64,000 nt of DNA. It comes from Hyalangium versicolor (lineage in GTDB: Bacteria; Myxococcota; Myxococcia; Myxococcales; Myxococcaceae). Positions within the stretch are counted from its first letter, which is position 1. The number at the start of each line of letters is the position of its first letter. This document shows positions 44,894 through 49,619 of this stretch, in pieces. Where the stretch lies: contig NZ_JAHXBF010000003.1 of NCBI RefSeq assembly GCF_020103695.1, positions 558,001-622,000 of the forward strand, given 5' to 3'. A program made the position numbers and the translations under genes. The notes below the pieces were generated by a model. That model had not been told where the DNA came from, ran no database searches, and was given only the letters and a program-made list of their open reading frames with translations.

Positions 44894-44975
44894 GCCCCGC
44901 GCCCGCGCGGGGTTTCGTGCTAGAGCCACCTCGGACCGCGGCCGGCGGACGGCCGCTTCACCCCGAGGTGTCCCC

Positions 44976-45362
44976 ATGGCGCGCAAAGTCATTCACTCCG
45001 ACAACGCCCCCCAGGCGATTGGCCCGTACTCGCAGGCCATCCAGGTAGAGGCGGGGAAGATGACCTTCCTGTCCGGGCAGATCCCCCTGAACCCCAAGAC
45101 CATGGAGATGGTGCAGGGAGACGTGGTCGCCCAGGCTGAGCAGGTGATGCAGAACCTGAAGGAAGTGCTCGCCGCCTCCGGGCTCGACTTCTCCCATGTG
45201 GTGCGCTGCACCATCTTCCTCACGGACCTGGGCGACTTCGGCAAGGTGAACGAGGTGTATGGCCGCCACTTCCCGTCGGCCCCGCCGGCCCGCGCCACCG
45301 TGCAGGTGGCCGCGCTGCCTCGCGGCGCCAAGGTGGAGATCGACGCCATCGCCGTCTCCTGA
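44976..45362 (+). CDS. ridA: RidA-family enamine/imine deaminase
   Basis: 128 residues, standard length. It has SDNAPQAIGPYSQAI at the N terminus and the family C-terminal block PPARATVQVAALPRGAKVEIDAIA; the Arg in PARATV binds the substrate carboxylate. It clears reactive 2-aminoacrylate-type imines made by PLP enzymes. GAGGTG precedes the ATG; upstream in-frame sequence overlapping rel is not credible. Confidence 0.96.
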   Translation: MARKVIHSDNAPQAIGPYSQAIQVEAGKMTFLSGQIPLNPKTMEMVQGDVVAQAEQVMQNLKEVLAASGLDFSHVVRCTIFLTDLGDFGKVNEVYGRHFPSAPPARATVQVAALPRGAKVEIDAIAVS

Positions 45363-45447: not shown

Positions 45448-47427
45448 CTACTTGGTGTCCTTGGCCACCGCGCCGCCCTGGGCCTTCTTCAGCTCCTCAT
45501 CGATGACCTTCTTGAAGTTCTCGAAGGGCTGAGCACCCACGAAGGTGCGGCCGTTGATGAAGAAGGTGGGGGTGCCGTTGGCGCCCACGCGCATGCCCTC
45601 GGCGGAGTCCGCGTCGATCTGCGCCTTGAACTTGTCGGTGTCCAGGGCCTGCTTGAACTTGCCCACGTCCAGACCGATCTCCTGGGCGTACTTCTCCAGG
45701 GAGGCGCGGTCCAGGGCGCGCTGGTTGGAGAACAGCTTGTCGTGCATCTCCCAGAACTTGCCCTGCTCCTGGGCGGCCATGGCGGCGGTGGCGGCCAGGC
45801 GCGCGTTGGCGTGGAAGGGCAGCGGCTGGTGCTTGAAGGCGATGCGGACCTTGCCCTTGTACTCCTGCTCCACCTGCTGGACGGTGGGGATCACCCGGCC
45901 GCAGAAGGGGCACTCGAAGTCGGACCACGCGACGATGGTGACCGGAGCGTTGTCCGGGCCCTTCACCGGCGCCTTGCCGATCTCGATCTTCTGCACGGGC
46001 GGCTCGGCCGGGGCGGCGGGCTCGGAGGGCGGCGGGGCGTTGGCGGCCGCCTCCATGATCTTCGCGTAGAGGTTCTCCGGCTTCACGCCCGAGGCCAGCA
46101 GCTTGTCCGCCTTGCCGAGCTCCTCATCGATGACCTGCTTGAAGTTCTCGAAGGGCTGGGCGCCCACGAGCTGGCGGCCGTTGATGAAGAAGTTCGGGGT
46201 GCCGGTGGCGCCCACGGCGGTGCCGGCGGCGGAGTCCGCCTCGATGCGAGCGCGGAACTTGCCGCTGTCCAGGGCCTGCTTGAACTTGCCCATGTCCAGC
46301 TTCAGCTCCTGGGCGTAGCGCTCGAAGTCCGCGCGCTCCAGGGCCTTCTGGTTGGCGAAGAGCTTTCCGTGCATCTCCCAGAACTTGCCCTGCTCGTGAG
46401 CGGCCATGGCGGCCTCGGCGGCCGGCTTGGCGTGCGAGTGGAAGGGCAGCGGCTGGTTGCGCCACACGATGCGCACGTCCTTGCCGTACGTCTCGCGGAC
46501 CTTGGCCAGCGTGGGCTCCACGCGGCTGCAGAAGGGGCACTCGAAGTCAGACCACTCGACGATGGTGACCTTGGCCGTCTTCTCGCCCTGGACGGGGGCG
46601 TCCACGGGGACTTCCACCTTGCGCGGGCCCGAGGGCTGCTGCGGGGCAGCCGGCTGCGGCGGAGCGGCGCGCGCCTGGCCCTTCTCGATGATGGCGGCGT
46701 AGACCTGGCCCGGCTTGGTGCCGTTCTTCACCAGCGTCTCGGCCTTGCTCAGCTCCTCGTCGATGATGGCCTTGAAGTTCTCGATGGGCTGCGCGCCGGA
46801 CAGGAAGCGGCCATTGATGAAGAAGGCCGGGGTGCCGTTGGCGCCCAGCTGGCTGGCCAGCGCTTGGTCGCGGTCGATGATCTGCTGGAACTTGGGGTTG
46901 GTCTGGGACTGCTTGAACTTGGGCAGATCCAGCCCGATCTCCTGGGCGTGCTTCTCGAAGTCCGTGTCCTCGAGGGCGCGGTTGTTGGCGAAGAGCAGGT
47001 CATGCATCTCCCAGTACTTGCCCTGCTCGCCAGCGGCGAGGGCGGCCATGGCTGCGGGCTTGGCACGGGGATGGAAGGGCAGGGGGTTCTGCTTCATCAC
47101 CACGCGGACCTTGTTGCCGTAGTCCTCGCGCAGCTTCTGCACGGTGGTGTGGGCGCGGGAGCAGAACGGGCACTGATAGTCGGAGAACTCGACGATCGTC
47201 ACGAGGGCTTCGTCGTTGCCCAGACGGGGCGAGTCCTCGAGGGGAACCTTGAACACGGTCGGATCGGCCTGGCGCGATGGCTTGGCGGCCTGGGTGGGCG
47301 CCGAAGGCGCATTGGCAGCTTGAACGCTGCCGGTGTCACTGCTCTTACCAGGGCCGGTGGCCGCTCTGCCACCAAAGAACCCGAGCACAAGGCCCACGAC
47401 GAGGGCCACGATCACATTGGCTTTCAT
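45448..47427 (-). CDS. Membrane-anchored protein with three tandem DsbA-type thioredoxin domains
   Basis: 659 residues. The N terminus ([16 protein letters not shown]) is a signal anchor, so the protein faces the periplasm. Three DsbA-like domains of about 200 residues follow, each with its own CPFC active site (Cys86, Cys297, Cys506) in a near-identical context ([27 protein letters not shown]), and each with the GTPxFFINGR block that contains the cis-Pro. Short Pro/Ala-rich linkers separate them. Most related proteins have one such domain. The repeats are similar enough to suggest internal duplication. It should act as an oxidant or isomerase for periplasmic disulphides. Confidence 0.95.
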
Positions 47428-47639
47428 TTTTCCGTTCTGCTCCTTGCGTCTCAGGTCCGTACTGTGCGTGGCGGCCCCGGGCGGGGAAAGGAAGGCGGGC
47501 TAGATAACAGAGGGAAATCCGGCCACGCAAGCCGAGCCGCCATCCCTTCGGCGGCTTCCCCACCTCTCCTAGAGGCCCGGAAACACGACACTTTTCCGGG
47601 AAATTCCCCCCTCACACGTGGGGGGCGGCGCATGCCAGA

Positions 47640-47903
47640 GTGACGATCATGGAAGCGGCCGTTTGCGTAGACACCTCGGGAGCCGCCTGTCCCATGCCGA
47701 TCATCGAGATCGCCAAGGCGATGCGGCGGCTGCCAGCGGGAGCGGTGGTGGAGTTGATCTCCACCGATAGAGGCCTGGAGGCCGACCTGCCCGCCTGGTG
47801 CGAGGCGACCGGGAACACGCTGCTGCGCATGGAACGCCGAGGCCCCAGCTACGTGGGGTGGGTGCGCAAGGCAGGCGGGATACCGGGAGTCCACGGCCCG
47901 TAG
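47640..47903 (+). CDS. TusA/SirA-family sulfur-carrier protein
   Basis: About 87 residues from a GTG, or 84 from the ATG at 47649; neither has a strong ribosome-binding site. The CPMPIIEIAKAM motif near residue 17 carries the family's acceptor cysteine (CPxP), followed by the small alpha/beta fold. It may relay sulfur for tRNA thiolation or cofactor assembly, or regulate redox. It is a lone gene between the DsbA-like gene and the ABC operon. Confidence 0.88.
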   Translation: MTIMEAAVCVDTSGAACPMPIIEIAKAMRRLPAGAVVELISTDRGLEADLPAWCEATGNTLLRMERRGPSYVGWVRKAGGIPGVHGP

Positions 47904-47925: not shown

Positions 47926-48837
47926 TCAAAGAATCTGCAGCACACGTTCTTCGAGCCGTTGGCCCCGGTGGACGCCGAGGATGAGGACGCCCGTCTGGAG
48001 CAGGTGGCCGACCGTGCGGCTGATGACCTCCTCGGGCTTGTGGGCCTCGCCATCGAAGCGGACCAGGAGCACGCCGGGGGACTCCATCTTCGCGGAGGTG
48101 ACGCCCGGGAGCTGGGTGAGTTCGGGTGGGAGAACCTCTCCGCGGGCGATCTGCACCCGGAACTCGGCGCCCTGGCCGGTCAGCTCGGACATGGTGCCGA
48201 GCTTGGCGACGGTGCCTCGATCGAGGATGGCGGCCGCGTCGCACAGCTCCTCCAACTCCTGGAGGTTGTGGCTGGAGACGACCACCGTCTGCTTGCCCTT
48301 CATGTCCCGGATGATCTGGCGCACCTGGCCGGCGACGCGGGGATCGAGGCCGGCGGTGGGTTCGTCCAGGAGCACCAGCGGCGGTTGCCCCATGAGGGCC
48401 TGGGCCATGGCGGTGCGCTTGGCCATGCCGTGAGAGAGGGCCTCGGTGGCGGTGGACCAGGCGTCGGCCAGTCCGACGCGTTCGAGGGATTCGCGGGCTT
48501 CGCGCTCGGGCTGGGGGAGGCCGGACAGCCGCGCCCAGTAGGTGAGGAGCGCGCCGATCTGCCAGCCCGCTGGGAGGATGGCGTCCTGGGGGAGCGCGCC
48601 CAGCTTGCCCTTGAGGGCTCCGGGAGTCGCCGGGTTGACGCCCATCACCCGGAGGCTGCCCTCGGAGGGGTGGAGGAAGCCGCACATCATGGAGAAGGCG
48701 GTCGTCTTCCCGGCGCCGTTGGGGCCGATGAGGCCGTACACCTGGCCATGGGGGATGGAGAGGGTGACGGCGTTGACGGCCACCTTGAGGCCGAAGCGCT
48801 TGGTGACCTGGGTCAGCTCGATGGCGGAGTCGCTCAC
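47926..48837 (-). CDS. ABC transporter ATP-binding protein
   Basis: 303 residues from a GTG that overlaps the permease stop (GTGA), so the two are coupled. Walker A GPNGAGKTTAF near residue 41, signature LSHGMAKRTAMA and Walker B LVLLDEPTAGLDP are intact. A C-terminal extension of about 80 residues resembles those of CcmA/DrrA-like exporters. It powers the permease encoded just upstream. Confidence 0.95.
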   Translation of the reverse strand: MSDSAIELTQVTKRFGLKVAVNAVTLSIPHGQVYGLIGPNGAGKTTAFSMMCGFLHPSEGSLRVMGVNPATPGALKGKLGALPQDAILPAGWQIGALLTYWARLSGLPQPEREARESLERVGLADAWSTATEALSHGMAKRTAMAQALMGQPPLVLLDEPTAGLDPRVAGQVRQIIRDMKGKQTVVVSSHNLQELEELCDAAAILDRGTVAKLGTMSELTGQGAEFRVQIARGEVLPPELTQLPGVTSAKMESPGVLLVRFDGEAHKPEEVISRTVGHLLQTGVLILGVHRGQRLEERVLQIL

Positions 48838-49619
48838 AGGTCCCTCGCGCGCAGGACGGCGTAGGCGCCGCCGAGGAAGACGGCGGTGAAGCAGGCGTAG
48901 GCCAGGGCGCTGAGGCCGAACTCGCTGGGCACGGGGCTCAGCAGGTTCCCTGAGTAGTACGAGGGGGCCAGGTAGCGGATGTAGACGAGGAACGACTTGT
49001 TCTCGGAGTACCAGCCGATGAGCTCCATCAGCAGGAAGGACATGATCAGGACGAAGTTGAAGACGAGGCTCACTCCCGAGGTGCGGAACAGGCTCGAGCA
49101 GAACGTGGTGATGGCCACGTAGGCCAGGGCGAAGACCAGGGTGGCCAACCACACCTTGAGCAGGCTCAGCAGCATGGCGGTGAAGGCGAAGTTCGGGTGG
49201 GCGAAGCGGGCGTAGATGAAGAGGCCCACGTCGATGACGAAGACGAGCCCCACCAGCAGCGAGGACTGGACGAGGAACTTGCCCAGCAGCACCGAGGACA
49301 CCCGGGCGCGCACGGTGAGGTAGCGGATGGAGCGCGAGCCCACCTCTCCGCTGATCTGATCGAAGCCCATCAGGGCCACGTAGACGGGGAGGAACCAGAG
49401 GGTGATCTTGAAGATGTAGGCCACGTCGGTGGGCATCTGCTCCAGGGCTTCCATGCCCTGGATGCTGGCGCGGACCTGATTGGCCACGACGGTGGCCACG
49501 AGCAGGACCACCAGGGAGAACATGCCGTAGAGGCCGAGCAGCACCAGGGTGCGGGCGCTGCGCACGGCCCGAAGGGTCTCGGCACTCCAGACCACCGCGA
49601 TTTCTTTGAATCCGTCCAA
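48834..49619 (-). CDS. ABC-2 type permease
   Basis: 261 residues with about six transmembrane helices (clear segments near residues 28-46, 73-91, 115-132, 150-170, 180-200, 235-255). A cytoplasmic loop has FDQISGEVGSRSIRYL, a hallmark of ABC-2 family permeases that interact with the ATPase. Substrate unknown; export of a drug, lipid or peptide is typical. Confidence 0.9.
   Translation of the reverse strand: MDGFKEIAVVWSAETLRAVRSARTLVLLGLYGMFSLVVLLVATVVANQVRASIQGMEALEQMPTDVAYIFKITLWFLPVYVALMGFDQISGEVGSRSIRYLTVRARVSSVLLGKFLVQSSLLVGLVFVIDVGLFIYARFAHPNFAFTAMLLSLLKVWLATLVFALAYVAITTFCSSLFRTSGVSLVFNFVLIMSFLLMELIGWYSENKSFLVYIRYLAPSYYSGNLLSPVPSEFGLSALAYACFTAVFLGGAYAVLRARDL

Follow-up and report, generated by a model that had tools for sequence, protein, structure and literature searches.

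Three tandem DsbA-type domains on one chain in Hyalangium versicolor: a form common in Myxococcota and a possible linked-site disulfide isomerase/reductase

Results

The gene and its three domains

The window analysed here is a stretch of 64,000 nucleotides of the Hyalangium versicolor genome (assembly GCF_020103695.1, contig NZ_JAHXBF010000003.1, positions 558,001 to 622,000). In the ORF list of the window, an open reading frame of 659 codons with an ATG start encodes three tandem DsbA-type domains (Table 1). Pfam PF13462 (Thioredoxin_4) matched the protein in three stretches with an E value of 1.4e-91 (305.6 bits against a cut-off of 23.2), and PF01323 (DSBA) likewise matched three stretches (E 1.6e-74); the three-domain observation is far beyond chance. 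The only cysteines in the translation are residues 86, 89, 297, 300, 506 and 509, all within CPFC motifs in the contexts QCPFC, ECPFC and ECPFC. As expected of DsbA, each domain has both CxxC and cis-Pro, on a thioredoxin fold with a helical insertion. Pairwise identity is 57% between domains 1 and 2 (d1/d2), 56% for d1/d3 and 67% for d2/d3. The sequence-only reading had described three DsbA domains, each with CPFC and GTPxFFINGR, and this was borne out by the translation, Pfam and the AlphaFold model. Pfam matches to zinc fingers and similar families were rejected as chance matches around CPFC. An antisense ORF (45742-47643, +, 633 aa) that lies over most of the gene is likely a high-GC artefact.

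Table 1. Features of the tandem DsbA gene and its neighbours, in window coordinates.
Feature	Residues	Position	Strand	Basis or remark
CDS, three tandem DsbA/Thioredoxin_4 domains		45448..47427	-	ORF, translation, Pfam
N-terminal hydrophobic segment (signal anchor or signal peptide)	5-22	47362..47415	-	hydropathy, N-termini of relatives
DsbA domain 1	57-232	46732..47259	-	Pfam, motifs, model
CPFC active site 1	86-89	47161..47172	-	translation
cis-Pro block 1 (GTPxFFINGR)	198-207	46807..46836	-	translation
Linker 1	229-270	46618..46743	-	alignment, model
DsbA domain 2	271-445	46093..46617	-	Pfam, motifs, model
CPFC active site 2	297-300	46528..46539	-	translation
cis-Pro block 2 (GTPxFFINGR)	409-418	46174..46203	-	translation
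Linker 2	440-479	45991..46110	-	alignment, model
DsbA domain 3	480-650	45478..45990	-	Pfam, motifs, model
CPFC active site 3	506-509	45901..45912	-	translation
cis-Pro block 3 (GTPxFFINGR)	618-627	45547..45576	-	translation
RidA-type (Ribonuc_L-PSP) gene, convergent neighbour		44973..45362	+	recurs in Myxococcaceae loci
ABC transporter ATPase and ABC-2 permease, neighbours		47926..49619	-	recur in Myxococcaceae loci

The RidA-type and ABC neighbours have no evident functional tie to the DsbA gene, and neither a Dsb partner nor a metal-resistance gene was found among the five neighbours between 42683 and 51448. Of the 80 loci L069-L148, 11 have relatives of RelA and RidA and the other 69 have none; since many loci are short, absence is a partly uninformative result. 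All 11 are titled as members of Myxococcaceae except L074 (BNCN01000010.1, titled Comamonas sp.), which has the Myxococcaceae gene order and a RelA 87% identical; its title looks wrong. ABC genes were also found in L078, with a weak ATPase match in L099, and transpeptidase-like matches also occurred in L078, L112, L113, L139 and L146. A second title that looks wrong is that of L142 (Candidatus Hydrogenedens), where genome G198 has the same match in the same place as G059, a member of Myxococcota.

N-terminus, linkers and predicted structure

The most hydrophobic 19-mer of the protein spans residues 5-23 (Kyte-Doolittle 2.2), and the N-terminus MK[AP]N[VI]IVAL is shared with close orthologues. 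No lipobox cysteine is present, all six cysteines belonging to CPFC. By a threshold script, which is not a signal-peptide predictor, a hydrophobic segment was scored ahead of domain 1 in 64 of 70 three-domain relatives; of the six without it, three are truncated sequences (L075, L105 and L135), whereas L094, L111 and L141 are uncut. The hydrophobic N-terminus and its recurrence in close orthologues make the earlier description of the protein as anchored plausible, and it is probably membrane-tethered.

The hydrophobic segment is followed by a low-complexity stretch and then by domain, linker, domain, linker, domain. AlphaFold2 was run on a 37-sequence alignment (A1; the window protein, P0001, with 36 relatives). 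Three confident DsbA folds were predicted (mean pLDDT 88.6), with a pTM of 0.53; the placing of the domains relative to each other is therefore loose and not fixed by the model. Over residues 1-51 the pLDDT stays under 50, and the sole helix there is at 6-12. No trimerisation stalk, that is, no N-terminal helical oligomerisation region of about 50 residues, was predicted, in a single-chain model that cannot show oligomers. In the linkers, helices were predicted at 239-247 and 450-462. Linker 1 has a helix with a repeated G...V-Y-A pattern and then a Pro/Ala-rich stretch; linker 2 is similar, and in both the helix ends near (V/L)-Y-A. Tyr454 of linker 2 is invariant in alignment A1. Over 67 sequences, mean conservation was 0.70-0.73 in the domains and 0.46-0.58 in the linkers, with a minimum of 0.31 at residues 23-55.

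Structure comparison was made mainly with residues 475-654, some rows being for domain 1, and domain 2 was compared by sequence. The top fold neighbour by Z score was BdbD (23.8), which we take to be an oxidase; other near folds include 3gyk (23.3), alpha-DsbA2 of W. pipientis (22.6), ScsC of C. crescentus (22.0), of P. mirabilis (21.9) and of S. Typhimurium (4gxz, 21.8), TsdA (20.6-20.9) and S. Typhimurium BcfH (20.2).

Distribution of the tandem form

The DsbA/Thioredoxin_4 family is already well known. PF13462 was found in 39/39 genomes (the own genome and 38 relatives), and a match at E<=1e-30 in 186 of the 193 Myxococcota genomes drawn, many of which are metagenome-assembled. At least 111 of these 193 carry a gene whose match spans all three domains. 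For this count, one alignment of at least 570 of the 659 residues, on a DNA length of roughly 1.8 kb upwards, was taken as at least three domains, so that four-domain genes are included; among the matches listed, sorted by score, at least 112 genomes reached 570 query residues, and G180 was dropped since its match covers only 1221 bases. Among the remaining Myxococcota genomes, some assemblies are fragmented and some genes differ in domain number. In 148 loci, some of them overlapping, 165 ORFs with the domain model were counted: 81 with three domains, 24 with four, 24 with two, 35 with one and 1 with seven. The sequence-only reading had tied the form to large substrates secreted by predatory myxobacteria; this link is conjectural, as many uncultured Myxococcota also have the three-domain form.

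Outside Myxococcota one phylum was sampled for contrast, that of the Troglogloeales locus L148 (genome G197). Matches at E<=1e-25 were obtained in 47 of 100 genomes. Besides G197, the matches listed have the length of one domain and none share a frame, at a cut-off below which weaker second domains could fall. G197 has a tandem two-domain gene and is the sole tandem genome found there; it is not an independent observation, because the phylum was chosen by this gene. In a plasmid search 2089 records matched, one of them covering at least 80% of the query. Cases of 'three pieces' on about 470 plasmid bases were rejected as tandem genes: they are three query domains aligned to a single target domain. 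One match, on a Granulicella plasmid, is about 1.1 kb long and would fit two domains, and tandem forms are thus not exclusive to Myxococcota.

The three-domain form is common in Myxococcota and not rare. The sequence-only reading had called tandem triplication rare and had held that many bacteria with the same form would speak against it; the Myxococcota scan and the relatives with one, two, three, four and seven domains overturn that claim, within this phylum. A 2009 survey (PMC2757866) notes in a supporting-figure legend that a few enzymes like DsbA have as many as three domains. The available portion of that survey gives no distribution, history or function for the tandem form, and its main text does not contain 'Myxococc', 'Stigmatella' or 'delta'. 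Among the papers listed from the open PMC subset, none was a functional study of a bacterial protein with tandem DsbA domains. Added here are the distribution in the phylum, the range of domain numbers, a position-specific history and a testable mechanism.

Duplication history and variants in domain number

Trees were built with FastTree (398 domains) and IQ-TREE (56 domains). In both, d1, d2 and d3 of Myxococcaceae cluster by position and not by genome. IQ-TREE supports were 98/89 for the d1 group (100/98 with d1 of L081), 98/98 for the d2 group and 97/96 for the core d3 group. The d3 domains of L076, L080 and L092 adjoin the core d3 group and lie outside it, and L113, which is not from Myxococcaceae, does not match the position groups. 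None of the three labels of three-domain proteins forms a single group in IQ-TREE: 2, 2 and 3 changes were counted against shuffled means near 9.8, the additional ones being due to L113 and to the d3 domains of L076, L080 and L092. Since the copies group by position, the triplication probably predates Myxococcaceae; recent duplication or gene conversion within the family is ruled out on the same grounds. The search for single- and double-domain homologues, which had been proposed as a way to date the duplications, thus returned relatives with one, two, three, four and seven domains and pointed to old copies in Myxococcaceae.

Outside this family some copies group by genome: d2 with d3 of L113 in IQ-TREE, and those of L112/L113, L098 and L144 in FastTree. 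Separate duplications or conversions are therefore likely there. For the phylum as a whole, the deep branching order of the duplications has low supports in the FastTree tree.

The own genome has a two-domain paralogue (L003, contig C45) with one d1-type and one d3-type domain, the middle one missing, and the same holds for two-domain loci of Myxococcus/Pyxidicoccus (L129, L131, L136). As its domains group with d1 and d3, a two-domain form as an intermediate in Myxococcaceae is unsupported, and the paralogue looks like a derivative of the three-domain form. Support is weak (92/30) for the branch uniting the d1 rows of the four two-domain proteins, and the long-branched L006 has an odd place next to their d2 rows. 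In L081, with four domains, d2 and d3 are sisters (100/99), the middle domain having doubled locally. Fen MAGs L099, L106-L108, L110 and L116 have four domains each, which the trees do not clearly match to the Myxococcaceae three.

Larger arrangements were also observed. L103 (5266-10302, +; MAG O_MB67) has seven DsbA domains, all CPFC, in one open frame of 1679 aa. The order is 4+3, with d4/d7 94%, d3/d6 86% and d1/d5 72% identical (54-94% among copies overall), and at the C-terminus Pro/Ala repeats turn into Cys/Ser repeats, perhaps by a frameshift. In L122, L123 (Nannocystis) and L124, three adjacent genes at about 4.1-9.7 kb have 2, 3 and 2 DsbA-type domains; CPPC and CPFC are among their motifs, and for domain three of the middle gene a simple pattern gave CSDF, which is probably not its active site. 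At G098:C129:899-4903 two near full-length matches lie side by side, that is, two three-domain genes in tandem.

Conservation of the active sites

With identical frames counted once, CxxC (mostly as CPFC) was retained by 213 of the 216 domains in three-domain ORFs, by 94/96 in four-domain ORFs, by 40/46 in two-domain ORFs and by 7/7 in the seven-domain ORF. The three-domain exceptions are d1 of L105, where the frame starts after a TGA at the first Cys, and d2 and d3 of L115. The latter (L115:256-2316, +) reads CPFC, CPFS, CPFS, the second Cys being lost at two of three sites. These counts support constraint on all three sites and speak against a single working site, which the earlier reading had named as an outcome at odds with its idea; each domain is probably catalytically competent. 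Among 36 Myxococcaceae proteins, 54 aligned positions are fixed alike in all three domains and 10 are fixed differently (at least 90% in each). Two residues before CPFC, d1 has a fixed Tyr and d2 and d3 have Phe.

In L105, L127 and L132 an in-frame TGA stands precisely where CPFC has its first Cys (SDFQ-U-PFCSRVGP). When TGA is read through, L105 has 4 domains with U in d1 and d4, and L127 and L132 have 2 domains each with U in both. SelA is present in G193 (L105, L132) and G194 (L127), and two selenocysteines per chain are likely at these three loci.

Redox partners

Partner genes were looked for in the own genome and 38 relatives, 23 of these 39 being of the family and 16 of the order outside it. 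DsbB had no match in the own genome and was absent from 38/39, being present only in G008. VKOR was found in 28/39, including 23/23 of the family. It was not found in 11 of the 16 order genomes outside the family, including G023 and G028, which carry the three-domain gene. The single VKOR of the own genome (L149:640-1959, -, 439 aa) is fused to a DsbA domain whose motif is CPHC. The genome also encodes two DsbD_TM proteins (469 and 746 aa), each with a C-terminal thioredoxin-like CxxC when inspected by eye. DsbC_N (PF10411) was found in 0/39 genomes, and in 1/14 of a control set (E. coli); it is also absent among the 25 Pfam families listed for the window protein. Elsewhere in the own genome, L001:895-1995 (+) has a single DsbA domain behind a lipoprotein-like N-terminal part of about 190 aa, which may resemble a SurA/PpiC-type chaperone sequence.

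Discussion

Comparison with known systems

Homotrimeric ScsC (P. mirabilis, C. crescentus), alpha-DsbA2 and BcfH, as described in the available parts of their sources, resemble the window protein in having the DsbA fold and three catalytic domains per functional unit, and ScsC and alpha-DsbA2 also share its GTcP motif. Unlike them, the window protein has its three domains covalently joined with no predicted trimerisation stalk, has CPFC in place of CGYC, CPYC or CGHC and has no metal-resistance gene among its five neighbours. The best phmmer matches were to TsdA of Corynebacterium diphtheriae (PDB 7unn/7uno, 4pwo/4pwp), which has CPFC and Thr-cis-Pro but is a single-domain protein of a Gram-positive organism. 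The best NCBIfam model was NF041057, the Rcas_1661 thioredoxin-like (seleno)lipoprotein, with 318 bits, summed over three domains, against a cut-off of 190. Like that family, some tandem relatives have an in-frame TGA at the first Cys; unlike it, the window protein has no lipobox Cys, and its domains number three, against the single one covered by the 247-position model. It also differs from DsbC and DsbG in having no DsbC_N dimerisation domain.

Among eukaryotic proteins, ERp46/TXNDC5 likewise has several thioredoxin-fold domains on one chain, but protein disulfide isomerases (PDIs) of this type have classical Trx domains with CGHC and without the helical insertion of DsbA. UGGT is a eukaryotic misfolding sensor and not a CxxC enzyme. 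Its tandem thioredoxin-like domains on one chain (PDB 5mu1 and others) gave Foldseek alignments of 499-564 columns, but at 12-13% identity and an rmsd of 15-19 Å over those columns. PDI-type enzymes can have two to four domains, according to the available portion of PMC2757866.

A possible linked-site isomerase/reductase

The protein would be a periplasmic, membrane-tethered thiol-disulfide oxidoreductase with three complete DsbA-type domains on partly helical, partly Pro/Ala-rich linkers. With three sites per chain it would present them at a higher local concentration to a substrate that is misfolded or has several disulfides, as the single-chain counterpart of homotrimeric ScsC, alpha-DsbA2 and BcfH in a role played elsewhere by dimeric DsbC; electrons would likely be supplied by DsbD-type proteins. 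We infer the periplasmic location, the tethering, the cooperation of sites, the isomerase direction and the DsbD partnership from sequence, fold and gene content. That the linked sites act jointly as a disulfide isomerase/reductase is the reading we favour, at a little below an even chance. It is rated most likely because joined sites would raise the local concentration and because one stalkless chain carries three GTcP sites (residues 198, 409 and 618) in a lineage where DsbC_N had no match. The two DsbD_TM genes of the own genome and the retention of CxxC at nearly all sites also count in its favour; the lack of a predicted stalk and of a Dsb partner among the neighbours counts against it. 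The absence of DsbC_N is compatible with an isomerase of another family. Of the gains that the sequence-only reading had suggested, several sites acting on one substrate would fit the anatomy best.

In the available text of PMC6450060, strong isomerase activity requires at least two catalytic domains, GTcP is common at the cis-Pro to all five compared isomerases, and the homotrimeric isomerase alpha-DsbA2 loses isomerase activity without its trimerising N-terminal residues. Trimeric ScsC and the idea of proximity are both set out in the available part of PMC8900818, where BcfH is both oxidase and isomerase. GTcP and CPFC are no proof of isomerase function, since single-domain relatives such as TsdA and many others have them. 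Fold likeness is not decisive either, since the top match, BdbD, is presumably an oxidase and S. Typhimurium ScsC is neither. The latter protein, a monomer, is described as neither oxidase nor isomerase in the excerpt of PMC8900818.

The main rival, itself unlikely, is a triple-site dithiol oxidase that puts disulfides into secreted proteins and is re-oxidised by the VKOR-DsbA fusion, which could drive such activity and so counts against an isomerase. It gains from the near absence of DsbB (38/39 genomes) beside VKOR in 28/39 and in all 23 of the family, from the fusion of the own VKOR to a DsbA domain and from BdbD as top fold match. In the available text of PMC9974433, MdbA of Actinomyces oris is re-oxidised by VKOR, and TsdA (CPFC, Thr-cisPro) can replace MdbA, the main oxidase, in C. 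diphtheriae, but TsdA is likely not primarily an oxidizer, a point for the isomerase reading, and the His of CPHC, which CPFC does not have, is tied to high redox potential. VKOR, moreover, already has its own DsbA domain and was not found in 11/16 order genomes outside the family, G023 and G028 with their three-domain genes among them.

Improbable, though next in order, is plain dosage: three independent, non-cooperating units on a tethered chain would be kept for capacity, and their number would drift. The variable domain number of relatives, the loose placing of domains in the model and the 10 positions fixed differently against 54 fixed alike would suit such drift, but Myxococcaceae keep position-specific domains distinct and the linker helix pattern recurs.

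An intramolecular electron relay, in which one domain exchanges with a membrane partner and hands electrons to the others, seems very improbable. The sites do share one chain, and d1 has Tyr where d2 and d3 have Phe two residues before CPFC, yet no redox gradient is evident because all three have the same CPFC/GTP chemistry, and two-, four- and seven-domain relatives mostly have the same motif. Least probable of all is the handling of copper or another metal as in Scs proteins, suggested by the likeness of the domains to ScsC and the Cu(I) binding of C. crescentus ScsC (PMC8900818, available part) but countered by the lack of a metal-resistance gene among the five neighbours.

Beyond the window protein, we tentatively suggest, at well short of an even chance, that in Myxococcota chains of 2-7 DsbA domains, mostly membrane-tethered, may replace DsbC as an analogue of PDI, with domains gained and lost from lineage to lineage and, in some chains, selenocysteine at two sites. 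If the linked domains of the favoured isomerase/reductase cooperate, the protein would be a single-chain bacterial disulfide isomerase and would offer a direct test of whether proximity of DsbA sites suffices for isomerase activity. The natural versions with one, two, three, four and seven domains would allow activity to be measured against domain number. If true, this may hint at how lineages without a detectable DsbC deal with wrong disulfides.
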